The notes under the pieces: generated by a model
Seen by the model: only the letters and a program-made list of their open reading frames with translations
Told to the model about the DNA's origin: nothing
Databases searched by the model: none
Source of the DNA: Allopusillimonas soli
GTDB taxonomy: Bacteria > Pseudomonadota > Gammaproteobacteria > Burkholderiales > Burkholderiaceae_B
Direction: 5' to 3'
DNA length: 64,000 nucleotides
Assembly (NCBI RefSeq): GCF_004153445.1
Contig: NZ_SDQC01000001.1
Location: forward strand, 992,001-1,056,000
In this document: positions 30,267-41,002 of the stretch, piece by piece
How the letters are laid out: every line of letters starts with the position of its first letter
How positions within the stretch are numbered: position 1 is the stretch's first letter
Program-made: the position numbers and the translations under genes

Positions 30267-30677
30267 TCATGCTGCAGGCGGCACCACCGCCGTCACCTCT
30301 ATTTCCACCTTGGCCTGGTCCTCTACGAGATCGGCCACCTCGATCGCCGTCATGGCTGGATAATGACGGCCTATGACCTCGCGGTAATGGCGGCCTATAT
30401 CCTGCAGCGATTCCATGTATTCCTTCTTGTCGCATACATACCAGGTCATGCGCGCAATATGCTCGGGACCGGCACCGCCCTCGGCCAGGACCGCCACGAT
30501 ATTTCTCAGTGTCTGGCCAACCTGCTCGGCAAAATCCTCCGTCTCGAATTCCTGCTGCGCGTTCCAGCCTATCTGGCCCCCGATGAACAGCAGCCGGCTG
30601 CCGGCTTGCATTTCCGTCATGATGCCGTTGGCATAACCGCGCGGCTCGGTCCAGAATGGGGGTTGCAATATTTTCAT
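30267..30677 (-). CDS. RidA-family (YjgF/YER057c) protein, probable enamine/imine deaminase of the anthranilate operon
   Basis: The 136-residue RidA-fold protein is the last gene of the operon. It keeps the fold signatures FIGGQIGWN, LRNIVAVLAEGGAG, MTWYV and VEIEV near the C-terminus. In canonical RidA the motif PARS supplies the Arg that binds the substrate carboxylate; here it is PAMT (Met109). It therefore is not a standard 2-iminoacid deaminase. The expected 2-aminobenzoyl-CoA monooxygenase product is a cyclic enamine with its carboxyl tied up in CoA, which needs deamination and would not need that Arg (inference). Start: AGGA lies five bases before ATG 30677; ATG 30689, overlapping the ligase stop, is the alternative. 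Confidence 0.85.
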   Translation of the reverse strand: MKILQPPFWTEPRGYANGIMTEMQAGSRLLFIGGQIGWNAQQEFETEDFAEQVGQTLRNIVAVLAEGGAGPEHIARMTWYVCDKKEYMESLQDIGRHYREVIGRHYPAMTAIEVADLVEDQAKVEIEVTAVVPPAA

Positions 30678-30685
30678 GCTGATCC

Positions 30686-32335
30686 TCATGCATTCGCCTG
30701 CGTTCGCAGGACAAAACGTTGCAGCTTGCCCGTTTCCGTTCTGGGCAAGCTGTCGGTGAACTCGATTTCCCGAGGGTATTTGTAGGGCGCGATGACAGCC
30801 TTCACGTGGTCCTGCAGCGCCTTGATCAAGGCGGCATCGCCGGCACGGCCCGGCTTGAGCACCACGAACGCCTTAACAATGTTGCCGCGCTGCGGATCGG
30901 GCTTGCCCACCACGCCGCACTCGGCCACGGCCTCGTGCGACAGCAGTGCATCCTCGACCTCAGGGCCGGCGATGTTGTAGCCCGCCGAGATAATCATGTC
31001 GTCGTTGCGCGCCTGGTAGAAGAAGTAACCGTCCTCATCCATCGTGAACGTATCACCCGGCACGTTCCATCCATGCTGGACGAAATTGCGTTGCCGTGCG
31101 TCATCCAGATAGCGGCAGCCGGTCGGGCCCTTGACCGCCAGCCGGCCCGGCGTGCCCGGCGGCACAGGCTGAAAGGCTTCGTCGACCACCTGCGCCACGT
31201 AGCCGGGCACCACCCTACCGATTGCGCCGCGGCGCACATCCTCGGGACGGCTAGACAGATAGACGTGGATCATCTCCGTGCCGCCTATGCCGTCCGTCAT
31301 TTCTATGCCAGTGGCCTGCTTCCAGAGCTGGCGTGTACTGTCCGGCAAGGCCTCGCCGGCGGACACACTGGCACGCAGGCTGGACAGATCATAGTTGCCC
31401 GCGCGTTCCGCCATCTGGCGATAGAAAGTGGGCGCCGTAAACGTCATTGTCACGCCGAAATCCTGCACGGTCTGCAAAAGTGTGTCGGGGGTCAGCTTTT
31501 CACACAGCACGGCGGCGCCGCCCACACGCAGCGGAAAGCACAACAGGCCGCCCAATCCGAAAGTGAAAGCCAGCGGCGGCGTGCCGCAGACCACGTCGGC
31601 GGCACTCATGCGCAGCACGTGGCGAGAGAAGGTATCGCACATGGCGAGCACATCCCGATGGAAATTCATGCAACCTTTGGGAATGCCCGTCGTGCCGCTG
31701 GTAAAGGCAATCAGGCAGACATCGTCAAGTGCCGTGTCACAGGCGGAAAAAGTATCCGGCTTGGACGCCGCGCGCGCGTCCAGGCTGTCCGGATCGTCAC
31801 CGCCGAAAAAGCAGGCTTGGCGCAGCATGTCGCTGTAGGCGGCATGCCCCGGGGTCATGCAGTCACGCACCTCGCCGGACAGGCGGACATCACACAGCAC
31901 CGCCGAAATCTGCGCCTTGTCGATGATTTTCTTCAGCTCCCCGGCCCGCAGCAACGGCATGGTTGGCACCGTGACCATACCCGCCTTGACCGCCGCCAGC
32001 CATGAGGCGGCCATCATGGCGTTGTTTGGCCCGCGCACCAGGACGCGATTACCCGGTTGCAGCCCCATGTCTTCAACCAGCACATGCGCGATACGGTTGG
32101 TCAAGCGCATGAGCTCAAGATAGCTCAGGCTGCGCTTGCCCTGGCCATCATGCCACCACAAGGCGATGCGATCACCCTGCCCCTGCGCTACCAGATCATC
32201 GACCAGCGCCACGGCGCAGTTCAGTCGAGCGGGATAATCGACGTCGGGATTTCCGTCCAGCAGCAATTCCGGCCAGTCGCCCTCCGGAGGGAGATGGTCG
32301 CGCGCATAAGTGTCAATATGGCCAGATGCTTCCAT
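30686..32335 (-). CDS. Aryl-CoA ligase (2-aminobenzoate/benzoate-CoA ligase type)
   Basis: This 549-residue ANL-superfamily ligase activates an aromatic acid with ATP and CoA. Motifs: the P-loop FTSGTTGIPKGCMNFHRD (about residues 192-209), a YLSSRPED/GxVVPGY region, GDTFTMDEDGYFFYQARNDDM (A8 hinge) and ETGKLQRF with the catalytic Lys near the end. It groups by eye with 2-aminobenzoate-CoA and benzoate-CoA ligases. The neighbouring aminobenzoyl-CoA-type monooxygenase makes 2-aminobenzoate the likely substrate, with salicylate the alternative. AAGGAG precedes the ATG by eight bases. It is followed directly by the RidA-family gene with overlap. Confidence 0.9.
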   Translation of the reverse strand: MEASGHIDTYARDHLPPEGDWPELLLDGNPDVDYPARLNCAVALVDDLVAQGQGDRIALWWHDGQGKRSLSYLELMRLTNRIAHVLVEDMGLQPGNRVLVRGPNNAMMAASWLAAVKAGMVTVPTMPLLRAGELKKIIDKAQISAVLCDVRLSGEVRDCMTPGHAAYSDMLRQACFFGGDDPDSLDARAASKPDTFSACDTALDDVCLIAFTSGTTGIPKGCMNFHRDVLAMCDTFSRHVLRMSAADVVCGTPPLAFTFGLGGLLCFPLRVGGAAVLCEKLTPDTLLQTVQDFGVTMTFTAPTFYRQMAERAGNYDLSSLRASVSAGEALPDSTRQLWKQATGIEMTDGIGGTEMIHVYLSSRPEDVRRGAIGRVVPGYVAQVVDEAFQPVPPGTPGRLAVKGPTGCRYLDDARQRNFVQHGWNVPGDTFTMDEDGYFFYQARNDDMIISAGYNIAGPEVEDALLSHEAVAECGVVGKPDPQRGNIVKAFVVLKPGRAGDAALIKALQDHVKAVIAPYKYPREIEFTDSLPRTETGKLQRFVLRTQANA

Positions 32336-32408
32336 GATGTTGCTCCTTGTTTTCGGTTACGGCCGCTGGTTTTAACCATCGCTGTGCGCCGCCTCGTGTT
32401 TTTTCGCT

Positions 32409-33260
32409 CTAGTCGCCCTCGAAGCGCGGCGCACGCTTGGCCGCAAATGCCTCGTATGCGCGCCGGAAGTCCTGCGTCTGCATGCAGATCGCCTGTGCAT
32501 TCGCTTCCGCCTCGATAGCCTGGTCCAGCCCCATGTCCCATTCTTCCCGCAACAGTTTCTTGGTCATACCGTGTGCGAAGGTCGGTCCATCCGCCAGCTT
32601 GCGAGCCAGATCCTGGGCGGCCTCCAGCACCGCCGGCCCTTCATGCAGGCTGTTGAAGAAGCCCCAGGCCATGCCCTCATCGGCACTCATGGACCGGCCC
32701 GTGTACAGCAGCTCGGAGGCGCGTCCCTGGCCTATCATGCGCGGCAACAAGCTACATGCCCCCATATCCGCACCCGCCAGGCCGACGCGTGTAAACAGGA
32801 AGGCTGTGCGCGCGGCCTGCGTGCCCAGCCGCATGTCGGAAGCCAAGGCAATCATGGCACCCGCCCCTGCGCATATGCCGTCCACCGCCGCGACAATGGG
32901 CTGGGGACAGTTGCGCATGGCCTTGACCAGATCGCCCGTCATCTGCGTGAACGCCAGCATTTCCGGCATGGTCATGCGGGTCAGGGGACCGATGATTTCA
33001 TGAACATCGCCACCCGAGCAGAAATTACCGCCCGCGCCCGTCACAACCACGGTCTTGATATCCGTTGCGTACTGCAGGCCACGGAAAAGATCACGCAGTT
33101 CCGCATAGGAATCGAACGTCAGCGGATTCTTGCGCTCCGGCCTGTTCAAGGTGATGGTGGCCACCTTGCCGTCCTCACTCGCCTGCCACAGGAAATGCCG
33201 CGCCTCGTACGATGCATAGGATTTCGTGTGATGCGCCATGGTGTGCGCCTGCTGATCCAT
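32409..33260 (-). CDS. Enoyl-CoA hydratase/isomerase family protein of the anthranilate-type operon
   Basis: This 283-residue crotonase-fold protein shows [15 protein letters not shown], the oxyanion-hole segments [13 protein letters not shown] (about residues 75-88) and [16 protein letters not shown], and a C-terminal Arg/Lys-rich end ([10 protein letters not shown]). It presumably hydrates or cleaves a cyclic CoA intermediate after ring reduction, a beta-oxidation-like step (inference). The start at 33260 has GAGGAG eight bases upstream. An open extension to 33362 overlaps the SDR gene and is not part of it. Its stop is 73 bases before the ligase start. Confidence 0.88.
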
Positions 33261-33286
33261 GTCATTCTCCTCGCTTGCGGACTGCA

Positions 33287-34102
33287 TCAGCCCGCGGTTT
33301 CTCCACCGTCCACAGGAACGGTCTGGCCATTGATTGCCGATGAAGCCGGCAGGCACAACCATGCTATCGCCGAGCCAACCTCTTCCGGCCGCACCAGCTG
33401 GCCCTGCGGGTTGCGCGCCGTGAGCGCACTGCGTGCTTCATCGTCGGACGATCCGGTTTTGCGGCTGATGTTGGCGACCGCCTCGCGCACAATGTCCGTA
33501 TCGGTATAGCCCGGACACACTGCATTCACGGTGATCCCCCTGCCTGCAACCTCCAGTGCCAATGCTCGTGTCAGTCCCACCACGCCATGCTTGGCCGCGC
33601 AGTAGGCGCTGACATATGCATAGCCCTTTACGCCCGCCGTGCTGGCAACATTGACAATACGGCCCCAGCTGTCATGCAGCATGTCCGGCAGCGCGGCCTG
33701 GGTGCAATGAAAAACTCCCGTCAGGTTGACCGACAACATGTCGTGCCATCCCTGTTCATCCAGGCGATCAAAGCGCTGGCTGACGGCTTGACCGGCATTG
33801 TTGACCAGGATGCCGACGGGCCCATGCAGCGCCCGTGCATGCTCAAAAGCGGCTTGCACCTGGTCTCGCTGAGCGACATCGCCACATGCGATCGCCACCC
33901 CGCCCATGGGCTCGAGCGCCGCCTTGGCCGCCTCCAGTACGTCCTGGTTGCGCCCCATGATGGTGACCTTCGCCCCCAGTGCCAGCAGGCGTTTTGCGGC
34001 AGCCAGCCCGATGCCGCGCGACCCGCCGGTCACCAGCGCATGCCGCCCCTCCAACGATGCATGTAATGCCGGCGCTGACTTCTCTGAACTGGCTTGCATC
34101 AT
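33287..34102 (-). CDS. SDR-family oxidoreductase, probable 3-hydroxyacyl-CoA dehydrogenase of the operon
   Basis: This 271-residue Rossmann-fold short-chain dehydrogenase has the [11 protein letters not shown](P) loop (about residues 25-32), a NNAG motif, and the Ser/Tyr/Lys triad (VASTAG and YVSAYCAAK). The C-terminal PVDGGE motif is present. In the anthranilate operon it would oxidise a hydroxyacyl-CoA intermediate or a cyclohexanone ring (inference). ATG at 34102 overlaps the ABM/R stop (ATGA), so translation is coupled. Confidence 0.88.
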
Positions 34103-36510
34103 TTGCCTATCGACTGCGCATAGGCGGCCGCTCGTTCAAAATTGGTTTCCATCTGGCGCTTGGCCGGGAAATATTGCCGCGGCCAACTGATGTCCTCGAA
34201 GCCGATGCGAGCCGTTTCGCGCAAGGTCCAGGCGGCATCGGCGAGGTGCGGGCGCGCCAGCGCGCACAGGTCGGCGCGGCCCGAAGCAATAATACTGTTC
34301 ACGTGGTCGGCCTCGAAAATGGCGCCCACGGCAATGGTGGGCACATCGGCCTCGTTGCGCACGCGATCGGCAAATGGTGTCTGGTACATGCGGCCAAATA
34401 CCGGCTGCTCCGCCTTGCTGACCTGGCCCGAGGAACAATCCACCATGTCCGCACCCGCAGCCTTGAAGCGCGCCGCAATTTCCACCGCGTCGTCCGCCGT
34501 GATGCCGCCCTCCACCCAATCCGTGGCCGATATCCGCACCGACATGGGCTTGTGCGCCGGCCACACCTCGCGCACGGCGCTGAAGACTTCCAGCGGATAG
34601 CGCAACCGGTTGTCCAGCGAGCCGCCATACTCATCGTCACGCAGGTTCGTCAGGGGCGAGATAAAGCTGGACAGCAGATAGCCGTGCGCGCAATGCAATT
34701 CCAGCCAGTCGAATCCGGCCTGCTCAGCGCGACGGGCCGCTGCCACGAACTCTTCCTTGACCTCCTCCATCTGCTGGTGCGTCATAGCCTGCGGTATTTG
34801 TGACACGCCTTCGATATAGGGCAGCGCCGATGCCGAGACCAGCGACCAGTTGCCTTCGGGCAACGGCTGGTCCGTGCCCTCCCAACTGACCCGCGTCGAT
34901 CCTTTGCGGCCGGCGTGCCCCAACTGTATGCCGATGCGCGCGTCCGTGTTCTGATGAACAAAATCAACAATTCGCTTGAAGGCCTGCATCTGCGTGTCGT
35001 TCCACAAGCCCGGGCATCCGGGGGTGATGCGCGCTTCAGGCGATACGCAAGTCATTTCAACCATGACAAGACCTGCGCCGCCCATCGCGCGCGCTCCCAG
35101 GTGCACCAGATGGAAATCACTCGGAATGCCGTCCACGCATGAGTACATGGCCATCGGCGACACCACGATGCGATTCTTAAGCACGACTTCACGCGCACGA
35201 TAGGGTGTAAGCATGGGCGGCATGGGATGAGCGTCCTGACCGGCGGCAGGCTGCGCATCCTGTGTGGAAACCGCCCGTGCACCATCGGCCCCCTGGCCCC
35301 CGACGCCGGACACCTGCTTCCGCGCCTGCTGCGCCAGCCAGCGCTCATAACCCTCAAGCCAGCCCGCATCGCGCACCCGCAAGTTTTCGTGGGAAATCCG
35401 TTGAGAGCGCGTCAACAATGAATAGGCAAACTGCTCCGGCGCAAATTCCGCATAGCGCGCCACATTCTCGAACCATTCCGTGGAATTGCGCGCCGCATTC
35501 TGTATCTTGAGTACTTCAAGACTGCGGACGTCCTGATAATGCTGCAGGGCAGCAGGCAGATCGCCCCGATGCGCCTGAATCGAGCGATGCAGCTCTATGG
35601 CGTCCTCCAGAGCGAGCTTGGTGCCCGAGCCTATTGAAAAATGCGCAGTATGGGCTGCATCGCCCATCAGGATGACGGGTACGCGGCGTCCGCCAGGCAA
35701 TGACTGTTCATGCACCCAGGTATCGCAGATGACGCGCGGAAAACGCTGCCATATGGCTGAGCCGCGCAAGTGCTTTGCGTTGGATATAAGCCCTTTGCCA
35801 TCCAGCCATGGCGCGAAAAGCCGTTCGCAGAATGCAATGCCCTCTTCCTGTGACATGGACTCCAGACCCGACGCCTTCCATGTTTCATCGCGCGTCTCGA
35901 CAATGAACGTGGACATGCCTGGCTCGAACTGATAGGCATGCGCCTGGAACCAGCCGTGCTCGGTCTGTACGAATGCAAAGGTAAAGGCATCAAAGGTTTT
36001 CTCAGTGCCCAGCCACACGAAACGGCACTCCCGGACGTCGATATCAGGCTTGAAAGTATCGGCATATCGGGTACGCACCCGGCTGTTCAGACCGTCGGCG
36101 GCGATGACCAGATCCGCATCGTAGCGCTGCGCCGCCACCTGGTCGTCGGTGACTTCCGTTTCGAAGACCAGCTTCACTCCCGCCTGCTCGCAGCGCGCCT
36201 GAAGGATATTCAGCAGTTTCTTGCGACCTATCCCTATGAAGCCGTGTCCGCTGCTGCGCAGGCTTTGGCCCTTGAAGTGAATGGCAATATCGTCCCAGTG
36301 ATTGAATGCCTGGATGATCTGGTCGGCCGATACCGGATCCGCTTCCTTCAGATTCTCCAGCGTGGCGTCGGAAAACACGACTCCCCAGCCGAATGTGTCA
36401 TATGGACGGTTGCGCTCGATCACCGTCACCTCGTTGGCCGGATCGCTGAGCTTCATCAGCAGGCCGAAGTACAGCCCTGCCGGTCCGCCGCCTATGCATA
36501 CGATATTCAT
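34099..36510 (-). CDS. Bifunctional aryl-CoA monooxygenase/reductase (2-aminobenzoyl-CoA monooxygenase/reductase or salicylyl-CoA 5-hydroxylase/oxidoreductase)
   Basis: The 803-residue protein is a natural fusion. Residues 1-395 are a flavin monooxygenase: GGGPAG (7-12), [12 protein letters not shown] (138-149) and [15 protein letters not shown] (282-296). Residues 398-430 form a Gly/Ala/Gln-rich linker. Residues 431-803 are an Old Yellow Enzyme-type NADH:flavin oxidoreductase: [20 protein letters not shown] and [13 protein letters not shown]. In Aromatoleum evansii the homologue hydroxylates and then reduces 2-aminobenzoyl-CoA to a non-aromatic 2-amino-5-oxocyclohexene CoA ester. A RidA gene in the operon favours an amino substrate; salicylyl-CoA cannot be excluded. 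Start: MNIVCIGGG at 36510 with GGAG upstream. Confidence 0.9.
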
Positions 36511-36637: not shown

Positions 36638-36802
36638 GGATTTTTTTAAAGTGCTTCATTTATCAAGCGCCGGATCAGGGGAAACGCCTACACTGTCGTC
36701 ACTGCGCGTCCATCGCACTCGGGCCCGTGACAATTCGGTGTTACTGCTATCTAATTGAAGGTTAAAATAGTCAGGCCCACGTTTGTCGCCGAGATCGATC
36801 CT

Positions 36803-37339
36803 ATGAGTGAATTTCTTCCCGCCGCCAGCATGGTTTCCGACTTTCCCGATCTGGAAAGCCGCACCGTCCCGGAGGACCACCGCGATCTGCGCCTGTGGTT
36901 GCGTCTGCTCACCTGCTGCAATCTCATAGAAAGCGAACTGCGCACCCGCCTGCGCACCCAGTTCGACACCACCCTGCCGCGCTTCGACCTCATGGCGCAA
37001 TTGCTACGCGCCCCCGAAGGCATGAAAATGAGTGAGGTATCACGCCACATGATGGTTACGAATGGCAACATCACCGGTATCACCGGCCAGCTCGAGAAGG
37101 AAGGGTTGGTGGAGCGCATTCCCAACGCAAGCGATGGCCGCAGTTCGCTTATCCGGCTCACCAGCAAAGGCAAGCGCAACTTCCGCAAGATGGCCCAGGC
37201 GCACGAGTCATGGATACAATCCATGTTCGGAGGCCTGTCCGAGCCCAGCCGGCAAGCATTGTTCGACGCCCTTGGAGAACTTAAGCGTGCGCAGCGCCAG
37301 GCCCTCGCCGATGGGTCGCCACTCTCTGGACAAGCCTGA
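36803..37339 (+). CDS. MarR-family transcriptional regulator
   Basis: This 178-residue winged-helix protein has a central MarR domain: a first helix segment LLTCCNLIESELRTRL, recognition region MSEVSRHMMVTNGNITGITGQLEKEGLVERI (given as two short motifs, MSEVSRHMMV and GNITGITGQL), and the wing ASDGRSSLIRLTSKG. It is divergent from the ABM/R operon and probably represses it until an aryl-CoA ligand binds, as known for several CoA-dependent aromatic pathways (inference). I start at ATG 36803; an earlier in-frame ATG at 36755 and a later one at 36830 are alternatives. Confidence 0.88.
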   Translation: MSEFLPAASMVSDFPDLESRTVPEDHRDLRLWLRLLTCCNLIESELRTRLRTQFDTTLPRFDLMAQLLRAPEGMKMSEVSRHMMVTNGNITGITGQLEKEGLVERIPNASDGRSSLIRLTSKGKRNFRKMAQAHESWIQSMFGGLSEPSRQALFDALGELKRAQRQALADGSPLSGQA

Positions 37340-38780: not shown

Positions 38781-40076
38781 TCAAGGTCTTGCGACGTCCA
38801 GGTGCATCAGGCTGGCCGCCAGTACGCGCGCGCCATCCATCAGTTGCTCTGGTTCGGTCCACTCTTCCGGGCAATGGCTGCGGCCGTCCCTGCATGGAAT
38901 GAACACCATGCCCATGGGCCCGCTGCGGGCCATGTAGGCCGCGTCATGGCCGGCGCCGCTGGGCAATACGGCGCTCGCATAGCCCAGCCCCGATGACGCC
39001 GCTTCTATAACCCGCATGACATCAGGATCGCACGCCGTCGGCCGGGACCGGCTCAGCTCGCGCATGTCCACAGATACCCGGAGCGCCTTCAGTCCCTCAG
39101 CAGTGCCGGCGAGCACCGCCTCGGGGAAACCGGCCAGTACCTGGTCGTTGTCGCTACGTACCTCCAGCACCAGCTCAACGTGGCCGGGTACGGCATTGGG
39201 AACATTGGGCGTCATGTCCAGGCGACCCACCGTGGCCACTACGTAATCGGTCCCCGCAGCGAGGGCCTGAGCCCTGGCATGCGCGCCTTCGATCAGCCGC
39301 GCGGCGCCCACCAGGGCATCGCGGCGAAGGTCCATGGGTGTGGTGCCTGCGTGATCTGGCCGGCCCGTCACCGTCAATGCAACCCGCCGTATGCCGACAA
39401 TATGGCTGACCACACCGATAGGCAGCCCTCGTGTTTCCAGGACCGGGCCCTGCTCGATATGCAATTCGACAAATGCAGCCGTATCGCCCTTGCCGCGCAG
39501 GGCAGTCTGCAGCCGGTCAGGCGCGGCGCCCACCCGAACCATGCCCTGAGCCAGGGTTTCGCCGTCCAGACGTGCGGAAGCCAGCATGGCGTCATCCAGC
39601 AGGCCCGTCATACCGCGACTGCCAACACAGGAAATGCCATAGTCGCTGGGTTCTTCGGAAAGAAAGTCTATGACCTCCAGAGGGTGGTCAAGCTGAACCT
39701 GCGCGTCATGCAAGGCGTGCGCGAATTCTATGCCGGCCAGCACGCCTATGATGCCATCGAAGCGGCCGCCGTCCATGACCGTGTCGCAGTGCGAGCCCGT
39801 GACGAGCGGCGCGGCATCCGCCCGGCGGCCCGGACGTCGCCCGATGAGATTGCCCGCCGCATCCAGCGATGTCTGCAGGCCCGCTTCCTGCATCTGGCCG
39901 CGCAGCCAATCGCGCGACTGAGCATGCAATGCGCTGAAGGCGCGGCGTGTCCACGGACGTTGCGCATCGGTAAAGCCCGCAAGCGTCTGCACCCGATGCC
40001 ACAAACGTTCTGCATTCAGACATGCCAGAACCGCTCGATTGGGCGGCGCGAGGGCGAATTGCGCATTTTCCGGCAT
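38781..40076 (-). CDS. M20-family Zn-dependent amidohydrolase (N-carbamoyl-L-amino-acid hydrolase / allantoate amidohydrolase type)
   Basis: This 431-residue binuclear-zinc hydrolase shows TGSHCDTVMDGGRFDG (about residues 92-107, Zn His/Asp), LSEEPSDYGISCVGSRG (the Glu base and Zn Glu), FVELHIEQGPVLE, GRPDHAGTTPM (substrate His) and GAGHDAAYMA. It belongs to the hydantoinase/carbamoylase group that hydrolyses N-carbamoyl or ureido groups. The substrate is not fixed. AGGAGG precedes the ATG. Next to an N-formylglutamate amidohydrolase-like gene it suggests a small N-substituted amino-acid hydrolysis module. Confidence 0.88.
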   Translation of the reverse strand: MPENAQFALAPPNRAVLACLNAERLWHRVQTLAGFTDAQRPWTRRAFSALHAQSRDWLRGQMQEAGLQTSLDAAGNLIGRRPGRRADAAPLVTGSHCDTVMDGGRFDGIIGVLAGIEFAHALHDAQVQLDHPLEVIDFLSEEPSDYGISCVGSRGMTGLLDDAMLASARLDGETLAQGMVRVGAAPDRLQTALRGKGDTAAFVELHIEQGPVLETRGLPIGVVSHIVGIRRVALTVTGRPDHAGTTPMDLRRDALVGAARLIEGAHARAQALAAGTDYVVATVGRLDMTPNVPNAVPGHVELVLEVRSDNDQVLAGFPEAVLAGTAEGLKALRVSVDMRELSRSRPTACDPDVMRVIEAASSGLGYASAVLPSGAGHDAAYMARSGPMGMVFIPCRDGRSHCPEEWTEPEQLMDGARVLAASLMHLDVARP

Positions 40077-40123
40077 GCCGGCCTCCTGTGCTATTGGATT
40101 GATTTACGGTATGGCTTCCGGCG

Positions 40124-41002
40124 CTAGCCCGTCTGGCCCTGCGTCCAGACGACAAGCGCCGCAACGAGATCTCTCAGATCGGCACGCAGCTTCTCGTAGC
40201 CCGCGTTCGGACGCAGGCTGATCTCATCCATGTACAGCTTGCGGTTCACTTCCACCTGAAGACTGTGACGACCGTTTGCCGGATCACCATGGCGCCGCAC
40301 GATTTCCACGCCTTTGTACGGATCGTTGACGGCGACGTCGTAGCCTCGTGCGCGCAGCCATTCGGCCACGAACTCCCTGAAGGCGGGCGCCGCGGTGGCG
40401 CCGTCGCGGTCCCCCAGCACGAAATCAGGATGAACAAGCCCGGGCTTGTCTGTGGCATAGGCGCCTGCGACGCTGGGCATGGAGTGGCAGTTGATGTGCC
40501 AGACCTGGCCGAAACGTGCATGTGCCGCATCCAGACATGATTTGAGCGCCTCGTGATAAGGCTCCCAGCAGGCCTGGATGCGATGGCGCACTTCATCATG
40601 CGACAGCTTGCGGCTATACAGCGGCGTGCCGTCGTCCATCATGCGCCAGATCAGTCCTTTTCCGAGCTTGACCTTGGGAGACTCGGGAAGCGGCTCGGGC
40701 CATGGCTGGGCCAGCAGCTGAGGGTCTATTTCCTCGGGGCCACGATTCGCATCGATATAACTGCGAGGGAAGCGCGCCGCCAGCAGCGGTACGCCCTGGG
40801 CAGGCGCGTTGTTCCATAGGTCTGCCACCCAGGTATCCTCCGCCGTGCGCAGAGGCCCCAACGCGATGGCGGGATCGAAATCGGGCGGATAATCCGTGCC
40901 GCTGTGCGGCGAGTCCAGCACCAGAGGAGCGGCGTTGTCTGAGGCCGGGTAATTGTCCGGCGCAATGTATCGGTATGAAAGGGGCTGAGTCGAAAAATGC
41001 AT
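40124..41002 (-). CDS. N-formylglutamate amidohydrolase family protein
   Basis: The 292-residue protein belongs to the HutG-like N-formylglutamate amidohydrolase family. It carries the LVLDSPHSGTDYP motif (about residues 27-39), the Glu/Asp zinc region (YIDANRGPEEIDP), INCHSMPS, LGDRDG, and LQVEVNRKLYMDE near the C-terminus. No hut genes are adjacent, so a role outside histidine degradation is possible. It lies 47 bases upstream of the carbamoylase-like gene and downstream of a Bug protein whose terminator-like hairpin sits within 50 bases of its start. Confidence 0.9.
   Translation of the reverse strand: MHFSTQPLSYRYIAPDNYPASDNAAPLVLDSPHSGTDYPPDFDPAIALGPLRTAEDTWVADLWNNAPAQGVPLLAARFPRSYIDANRGPEEIDPQLLAQPWPEPLPESPKVKLGKGLIWRMMDDGTPLYSRKLSHDEVRHRIQACWEPYHEALKSCLDAAHARFGQVWHINCHSMPSVAGAYATDKPGLVHPDFVLGDRDGATAAPAFREFVAEWLRARGYDVAVNDPYKGVEIVRRHGDPANGRHSLQVEVNRKLYMDEISLRPNAGYEKLRADLRDLVAALVVWTQGQTG

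Follow-up and report, generated by a model that had tools for sequence, protein, structure and literature searches.

A Rid-Family Protein with Methionine at the Arginine Position as a Candidate Enamine Deaminase of CoA-Dependent Anthranilate Breakdown

Introduction

In RidA-type proteins, Arg105 holds the carboxylate of the substrate, and Glu120 makes contact with the bound ligand at its keto group (PMC1884159, PMC4960622, PMC4433059). In the papers examined, deaminase activity of Rids is made to depend on this arginine, and Rids that lack it are left without a function; for the Rid4–Rid7 subfamilies, no deaminase activity is known (PMC4433059, PMC8113886). Precedents for catabolic Rids are provided by 2-aminomuconate deaminase and RutC (PMC6742747, PMC8113886), and Rids have been predicted in benzoate regulons by a regulon study (PMC6449761). 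Here, we describe a Rid-family protein that carries methionine at the arginine position and is encoded in a window of Allopusillimonas soli DNA (the whole 64,000-nucleotide stretch that was analyzed), in one operon with a fusion of a flavin adenine dinucleotide (FAD) monooxygenase and an Old Yellow Enzyme (OYE) of the 2-aminobenzoyl-coenzyme A (CoA) monooxygenase/reductase (ABM/R) type. Judging from sequence comparisons, we favor, with some confidence, the reading that this Rid serves CoA-dependent anthranilate breakdown as a pathway-specific enamine deaminase, acting on the ring enamine of a CoA thioester.

Anthranilate is a waste product of tryptophan, and the product of the fusion enzyme, 2-amino-5-oxocyclohex-1-ene-carbonyl-CoA, is known for Azoarcus. 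The Azoarcus cluster of Schuhle et al. (2001) reportedly includes a MarR protein and a putative translation inhibitor, the latter named in the abstract; 'translation inhibitor' is an old name for the Rid family, and we presume that the protein so named corresponds to the Rid considered here. In the fusion product, the carboxyl group is present as a thioester and the adjacent ring carbon bears the amino group (PMC4539516), and two very similar clusters have been described in Azoarcus (PMC8388817). While the Rid fold and the pathway are known, neither the near-obligate partnership of an Arg-less Rid with this pathway nor the proposed reaction was found in the literature searched, which gives no role to the Rid of this operon and excludes most subscription journals.

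A Rid Protein with Methionine at the Arginine Position

The window lies on contig C10 of a 4.15-Mb genome. Five genes on its minus strand (36510–30267) are arranged as one tight operon, with 4-bp overlaps or short gaps between them. A first-pass annotation, made from the sequence alone, had assigned a ligase, a monooxygenase/OYE fusion, a crotonase, a short-chain dehydrogenase/reductase (SDR), and a Rid-family protein to a single operon, and both the open reading frame coordinates and the family matches agree with this assignment (Table 1). Two hallmarks of the CoA-dependent anthranilate (ABM/R) pathway, a full-length monooxygenase/OYE fusion and an aryl-CoA ligase adjoining it, are present in the window.

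The Rid protein matches PF01042 with 70.7 bits (cut-off 27.3), as do all 51 aligned members, which places it in the Rid superfamily. Its monomer model shows a confident Rid fold (pLDDT 96.7), with YabJ (Z 19.1, rmsd 1.7 over 125 residues) and RutC (Z 18.6) as the closest solved structures. The equivalents of Tyr17 and Glu120 of RidA are retained as Tyr15 and Glu125, whereas the position of Arg105 is occupied by Met109 within the motif HYPAMTA. The canonical RidA of the same genome (L001) has PARS at this site, so the replacement of PARS by PAMT noticed in the first-pass annotation is genuine. The methionine is numbered 109 because GAGGA precedes the ATG at 30677; an alternative start at 30689 would overlap the ligase gene by 4 bp.

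With Met at this position, the protein departs from the RidA subfamily, in which Arg is found (Ser in a minority), and its TIGR00004 score of 55.3 bits lies below the cut-off of 106.25. It also differs from Rid4 and Rid7, which have Trp, and from the 2-aminomuconate deaminases (AmnE/NbaF), in which Arg117 is expected. Judged by the residue itself, Met would be compatible with the variable position of Rid5 and Rid6.

Conservation of the Methionine and Co-Occurrence with the Fusion

The fusion model NF006101 was searched against 299 genomes of the window's phylum, and matches above 1000 bits, a threshold of our own, were regarded as full-length; 44 such fusions were detected in 42 genomes. For the 43 fusions besides that of the window, the flanking DNA was then examined, in stretches of up to 20 kb, with a general Rid profile constructed from the six Rids of the window's own genome. 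This unbiased search recovered 29 Rids, one per stretch, in 29 of the 43 stretches, and every one of them has Met, giving 30 of 30 with the window included. The family was defined as proteins matching a profile of these 30 linked Rids with more than 150 bits. There are 46 such matches in the 299 genomes, 45 of which were examined (G167:C88:63122 was left out), and the loci examined yielded 124 distinct family sequences, the window's among them, all with Met, the Tyr and Glu equivalents, and W38. These 124 sequences rule out a local mutation or sequencing slip as the origin of Met.

As controls, 95 Rids were collected: the 30 best-scoring PF01042 loci, 60 lower-scoring rows picked by hand among the matches listed, and five paralogs from the window's own genome. 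The 90 Rids other than these paralogs come from 60 genomes, and seven rows belonging to the Met family were left out. The controls have Arg (69), Ser (11), Ala (5), Trp (4), Thr (2), Leu (2), Cys (1), or Asn (1) at the arginine position and Met in no case, and the Glu is retained in all 95. The Rid search around the 44 fusions and these PF01042 controls constitute the unbiased Met counts. The family is further marked by a signature of six residues (W9, N17, W38, W79, Y87, and E119), each present in at least 98% of family members but in 0–2% of controls; Y87 falls in an insertion, where 92 of the 95 controls have a gap. In a phylogenetic tree, the family and a small Bradyrhizobium-like side group form one clade (SH-aLRT 99), and the same clade was obtained at a support of 97 when actinobacterial and archaeal members were added and other rows thinned, using few columns and a quick method. 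Separately, one genome of the set contains three Rid domains in a single 449-codon frame (G058:C1:4575690-4576895), and triple-RidA proteins of this kind have been described (PMC4433059).

At the genome level, a family Rid above 150 bits is present in 41 genomes, all of which possess the fusion, and 41 of the 42 fusion genomes possess the Rid; it occurs in none of the 257 genomes lacking the fusion (E <= 1e-25). Fisher's test of this overlap, which involves 26 genera, gives p 8e-50, a value that overstates independence since the genomes are related. Seven weaker paralogs (115–139 bits) are located in seven of the same 41 genomes. As for the 14 stretches without a Rid, seven have it outside the stretch, 9–13 kb from the fusion (G050, G247, G225, G207, G217, G289, and G167), three are on truncated or short contigs, their genomes carrying it elsewhere (G200, G196, and G051), two come from genomes in which it is remote from the fusion, and the remaining two are gentisate-type loci; both of the latter groups are considered below. 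Neither of two outcomes that the first-pass annotation had named as damaging to its reading, Arg in the linked Rids or absence of Rid from most ABM/R operons, was thus encountered.

This distribution bears on the possibility that the Rid performs no obligatory catalytic step and either clears an off-path imine as damage control or binds the CoA ester as a chaperone or sensor. Such a role would be in line with the loss of an arginine considered essential, with the action of RidA itself against stray 2-aminoacrylate, and with the ability of Rids to accelerate reactions that also run unaided (PMC8113886). However, the nearly one-to-one co-occurrence with one enamine-producing enzyme, the invariant Glu/Tyr pair, and the new family-specific residues exceed what a general scavenger would need, and we consider this explanation unlikely.

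Additional relatives were obtained by a contig scan with the family alignment and three peptide patterns; the best 80 of 575 confirmed relatives are referred to as named loci. Met is found in all 80, partly by design, given that one of the patterns contains PAM. A full fusion gene lies within 10 kb of the Rid in 68 of them. Among the other 12, the fusion is split over two frames in L089, ten loci reach the end of the stretch or contig, and in L106 no other operon gene is matched at 38% identity or more. The operon gene nearest to the Rid is at a median distance of 96 bp and within 2.5 kb in 75 of 79 named loci.

Loci beyond the Phylum and the Proposed Position of the Step

Outside the phylum, 5 of 60 and 7 of 40 listed rows, chosen for taxonomic spread, were examined together with plasmid pAL1; they serve as examples and not as a census. 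The gene tables of plasmids are incomplete, and absences were verified by BLAST of translated frames. Deinococcus psychrotolerans carries the entire operon with a Met-Rid. In Arthrobacter Rue61a (pAL1), Arthrobacter ERGS1:01, Rhodococcus erythropolis BG43, and R. qingshengii, the ligase, fusion, and Met-Rid (50–54%, 47–50%, and 29–35% identical to those of the window, respectively) are accompanied by cupin, FAH, and thioesterase genes. No relative of the crotonase or the acyl-CoA dehydrogenase was detected by BLAST in these four actinobacterial plasmid loci, and the SDR was matched weakly (29%) in R. qingshengii. In haloarchaea, a fusion-like enzyme of Natronosalvus (43% identity over 758 columns) is encoded near a Met-Rid, an SDR, an enoyl-CoA hydratase (ECH), and acyl-CoA dehydrogenases, while Haladaptatus (L321:9001-9423) has a Leu-Rid with a ligase, an acyl-CoA dehydrogenase, an SDR, and an ECH beside kynureninase and indoleamine 2,3-dioxygenase, possibly an archaeal tryptophan-to-CoA-ester route. 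A Sphingomonas plasmid stretch contains a Met-Rid, ligase, SDR, crotonase, and partial acyl-CoA dehydrogenase but no fusion. The Deinococcus, Rhodococcus, and haloarchaeal relatives have Phe in place of Tyr15.

The proteobacterial and the four actinobacterial loci share ligase, fusion, and Rid but differ in their downstream genes, and on this ground we assign the Rid to the step that immediately follows the fusion. The same deaminase chemistry might instead act later, on an enamine or imine CoA ester formed after SDR reduction or ring opening. SDR and crotonase do accompany the Rid in most named proteobacterial loci, and a review places beta-oxidation directly after the fusion product (PMC4539516). 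Nevertheless, the shared set of three genes in Actinomycetota, with its different downstream complement, favors a step before the divergence, and a C7H8O4 CoA ester reported from Arthrobacter (see below) fits deamination of the unreduced ring, so that a later substrate represents only a minor possibility.

Evidence for Anthranilate as the Substrate

The ligase of the window is probably an anthranilate-CoA ligase. Although its best NCBIfam match, TIGR02262 (349.3 bits), lies below the cut-off of 375.25, its best solved relative is 4wv3, 'Anthranilate-CoA ligase' (267.5 bits), and it is 50% identical to the ligase on pAL1 of Arthrobacter Rue61a. That strain has two ligase genes, one of them plasmid-borne, shown to activate anthranilate (PMC3534580), and the pAL1 ligase is, by gene order, the plasmid enzyme whose activity was reported there. 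In Rue61a, CoA esters of C7H7NO3 and C7H8O4 were seen only in anthranilate-grown cells, and the authors suggested that the C7H8O4 ester might be cyclohexanedione-carboxyl-CoA (PMC3534580), which is the deaminated product expected from the reaction proposed here.

Gene neighborhoods point in the same direction. Of the 42 fusion genomes, 32 encode kynureninase, and nine (G083, G099, G194, G197, G200, G217, G232, G246, and G247) have it no more than 15 kb from the fusion or the Rid; in the window's genome it is unlinked (G000:C11:782061). Next to the loci of Ruegeria, Aminobacter, R. qingshengii, Arthrobacter ERGS1:01, and Haladaptatus are genes for tryptophan/indoleamine dioxygenase or kynureninase. 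Together, the kynureninase linkage and the Arthrobacter data support anthranilate as the substrate.

By contrast, the NCBIfam name of NF006101, 'bifunctional salicylyl-CoA 5-hydroxylase/oxidoreductase', raises the idea that the operon serves the breakdown of salicylate or another nitrogen-free acid and that the Rid performs unrelated chemistry or is a passenger; some fusion loci do adjoin a gentisate-dioxygenase-like cupin. The sole fusion genome without a Rid (G296) is of this kind: its fusion lies beside a cupin protein and an FAH protein, the cupin being 74% identical to a Cupriavidus taiwanensis protein with sub-threshold matches to models of gentisate and 5-aminosalicylate dioxygenases. 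In G225, a second copy of the fusion has the same neighbors, and no ligase, SDR, crotonase, or Rid was detected in the 20-kb stretches around either; likewise, the other operon genes were not found at the fusion locus on the C. taiwanensis plasmid. Fusion loci resembling this gentisate-type, nitrogen-free route lack the Rid, including the three cupin-type loci examined (L037, L064, and L314), while several Rid loci carry kynureninase, tryptophan/indoleamine dioxygenase, or a protein related to a verified anthranilate-CoA ligase. A salicylate operon is accordingly a very improbable setting for the Rid of the window.

Two observations on the fusion family itself may be added. L037, L064, and L314 represent a second kind of fusion locus, with an ABM/R-like gene, a gentisate/5-aminosalicylate-dioxygenase-like cupin, and an FAH protein, and with no ligase or Rid found; this type is perhaps a true salicylate/gentisate route. 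The name of NF006101 may also be wrong for many of its members, a doubt raised because members adjoin the Rid and, in nine of 42 genomes, have kynureninase nearby.

Proposed Reaction

In the mechanism we propose, the ligase would form 2-aminobenzoyl-CoA, which the fusion would hydroxylate and reduce to 2-amino-5-oxocyclohex-1-ene-carbonyl-CoA, whose ring enamine is in conjugation with the thioester. The Rid would then catalyze protonation and water addition in its inter-subunit cleft via Glu125 and Tyr15, releasing ammonia and 2,5-dioxocyclohexane-carbonyl-CoA. This 1,3-dicarbonyl would be cleaved next, by the crotonase and SDR (usually with an acyl-CoA dehydrogenase) in Proteobacteria and by an FAH-type hydrolase set in Actinomycetota. 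As such a substrate offers no free carboxylate to clamp, Arg105 could be replaced by Met, and the six signature residues would line the pocket. The first-pass annotation had already read the protein as a dedicated Rid deaminase; Met invariance, co-occurrence, and linkage now strengthen that reading, while the deaminase role and the explanation of Arg loss by the thioester are still what we infer from these patterns.

The Rid fold could in principle serve another purpose, such as keto-enol tautomerization or a thioester-handling step on the dioxo ring. In the papers examined, Arg-less Rids have no known deaminase activity, and chorismatase activity also occurs in the Rid family (PMC4433059). 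The pathway nevertheless requires nitrogen removal, and no other obvious deaminase was seen among the annotated operon genes of several of the loci examined, which makes a non-deaminase role a remote prospect.

Several findings weigh against an enamine deaminase. The Arg-less Rids tested so far in published work have no detectable deaminase activity (PMC8113886, PMC5619798), and Arg-to-Ala replacement abolishes the activity of RutC and nearly abolishes that of RidA (PMC8113886, PMC5619798, PMC4433059). The C7H8O4 CoA ester was observed after acid quenching, and the fusion product is unstable below pH 5 (PMC3534580); the ester may therefore be an artifact of acidic extraction. A plasmid-less Rue61a mutant still grows on anthranilate, and the strain has chromosomal ligase and fusion paralogs (PMC3534580). 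Moreover, neither Met nor operon linkage is absolute. In two of the 42 genomes (G083 and G115), the Rid is far from the fusion; that of G083 adjoins an SDR, crotonase, acyl-CoA dehydrogenase, ligase, and kynureninase, with no fusion there. The Bradyrhizobium-like side group (L226-L232; the genus is a guess) has Ser in six members and Met in one (L232), all away from the operon. The Met-Rid of L106 has no other operon genes at 38% identity or more nearby. Haladaptatus has Leu instead of Met and no fusion in the stretch examined, a Microvirga plasmid relative (152 bits) has Met but no W38 and lies among unrelated genes, and a Gemmatirosa plasmid stretch that ends at the end of the record contains fusion, SDR, and crotonase but no Rid. 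Two neighboring genes at these loci may be recorded: an acyl-CoA-dehydrogenase-like frame (31%) follows the Rid in L106, and in L227 the side-group Rid is about 3 kb from a gene for cysteine synthase A.

An Arg-less subfamily is thus tied almost one-to-one to an enzyme with a known enamine product. Whether it comprises the first Arg-independent Rid deaminases is, on sequence grounds, an evenly balanced question: a subfamily of Pseudomonadota, Actinomycetota, Deinococcota, and haloarchaea would have given up Arg in favor of Met (once Leu) because it acts on the enamine of a CoA thioester, the rule that Arg105 decides deaminase activity would fail, and the deamination step of the pathway would gain an enzyme. 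If so, Arg-less Rids would receive their first reaction, and a gap in a pathway described in the 1990s would be filled; otherwise, these Rids do something else. The proposal would also cast doubt on the name 'salicylyl-CoA 5-hydroxylase' given to many fusion genes and would help to predict the recycling of tryptophan and auxin breakdown products by soil, plant-associated, and marine microbes.

Other Genes of the Operon and Its Surroundings

Table 1. Genes of the operon and its divergent neighbor (positions in the window).
Feature	Position	Strand	Evidence
ABM/R-type fusion (FAD monooxygenase + Old Yellow Enzyme)	34099..36510	-	NF006101, 1388.6 bits (cut-off 1078)
Short-chain dehydrogenase/reductase (SDR)	33287..34102	-	Family match; 4-bp overlap with fusion
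Crotonase-family protein	32409..33260	-	NF006107, 498.5 bits (cut-off 330); structural relative 3g64
Aryl-CoA ligase, probably anthranilate (2-aminobenzoate)-CoA ligase	30686..32335	-	Family match and best solved relative
Rid-family protein, 136 aa	30267..30677	-	PF01042; Met109, motif PAMT
MarR-family regulator, divergent	36755..37339	+	Family match

Among solved structures, the two halves of the fusion are related to a VioD-like monooxygenase and a YqjM/XenA (xenobiotic reductase)-like flavoenzyme. In the crotonase, the Asp of the motif GLAGxDMGAC is kept in 76 of 76 aligned rows. Compared by eye, the protein presumably lacks both catalytic Glu residues of enoyl-CoA hydratase, and its conserved Asp occupies what we take to be the position of that in PaaG/dehalogenase-type enzymes. 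Its identification as a BadI-like ring hydrolase was set aside, BadI not being among the best 25 of 71 NCBIfam rows.

In 73 of the 80 named loci, there is a gene for an acyl-CoA dehydrogenase that shares at least 50% identity with that of L086. Unlike close relatives such as L086, the window operon has none between crotonase and ligase (gap 32336–32408), and its genome carries an unlinked gene for a 68% identical enzyme (G000:C10:459414-460583). No thiolase was seen among the five operon genes of the window, the genome not having been searched for one. The divergent MarR gene, which the first-pass annotation did not mention, has a relative (>38% identity) in 55 of the 80 named loci. Farther away, the region 38781–41002 of the window contains a gene for a probable ErtE-type N-carbamyl-glutamate amidohydrolase (628.9 bits; cut-off 520), beside which lies an N-formylglutamate-deformylase-like gene (109.7 bits, below the cut-off of 278.75).

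Comparison with Known Systems

The Rid of the window resembles RidA (2-iminobutanoate/2-iminopropanoate deaminase; TdcF/YjgF of E. coli, YabJ of B. subtilis) in its fold (Z about 18–19), in the equivalents of Glu120 and Tyr17, and in the proposed enamine/imine hydrolysis. It differs in the replacement of Arg105 by Met, shared by 124 family sequences, in an insertion with an invariant Tyr, in extra Trp residues, and in its proposed substrate, a CoA thioester rather than a 2-imino acid. With Rid4–Rid7 it shares the loss of Arg and the retention of Glu; unlike it, Rid4 and Rid7 have Trp at the Arg position (PMC4433059), and Rid5 and Rid6 are variable.

Among catabolic Rids, the 2-aminomuconate deaminase AmnE/NbaF is likewise dedicated to one aromatic pathway and releases ammonia from an enamine, as proposed for the Rid of the window, but AmnE retains Arg117 and has a free acid as its substrate (PMC6742747), and the two share 20% identity (Z 16.8). 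RutC, the 3-aminoacrylate deaminase, is similarly an operon-bound Rid for a catabolic enamine, the role suggested here; in contrast, it needs Arg104, the R104A variant being inactive (PMC8113886). At the level of the whole locus, the operon resembles the 2-aminobenzoyl-CoA pathway of Azoarcus (Aromatoleum) evansii, which also comprises a CoA ligase, a monooxygenase/reductase fusion, and beta-oxidation enzymes downstream (PMC4539516).

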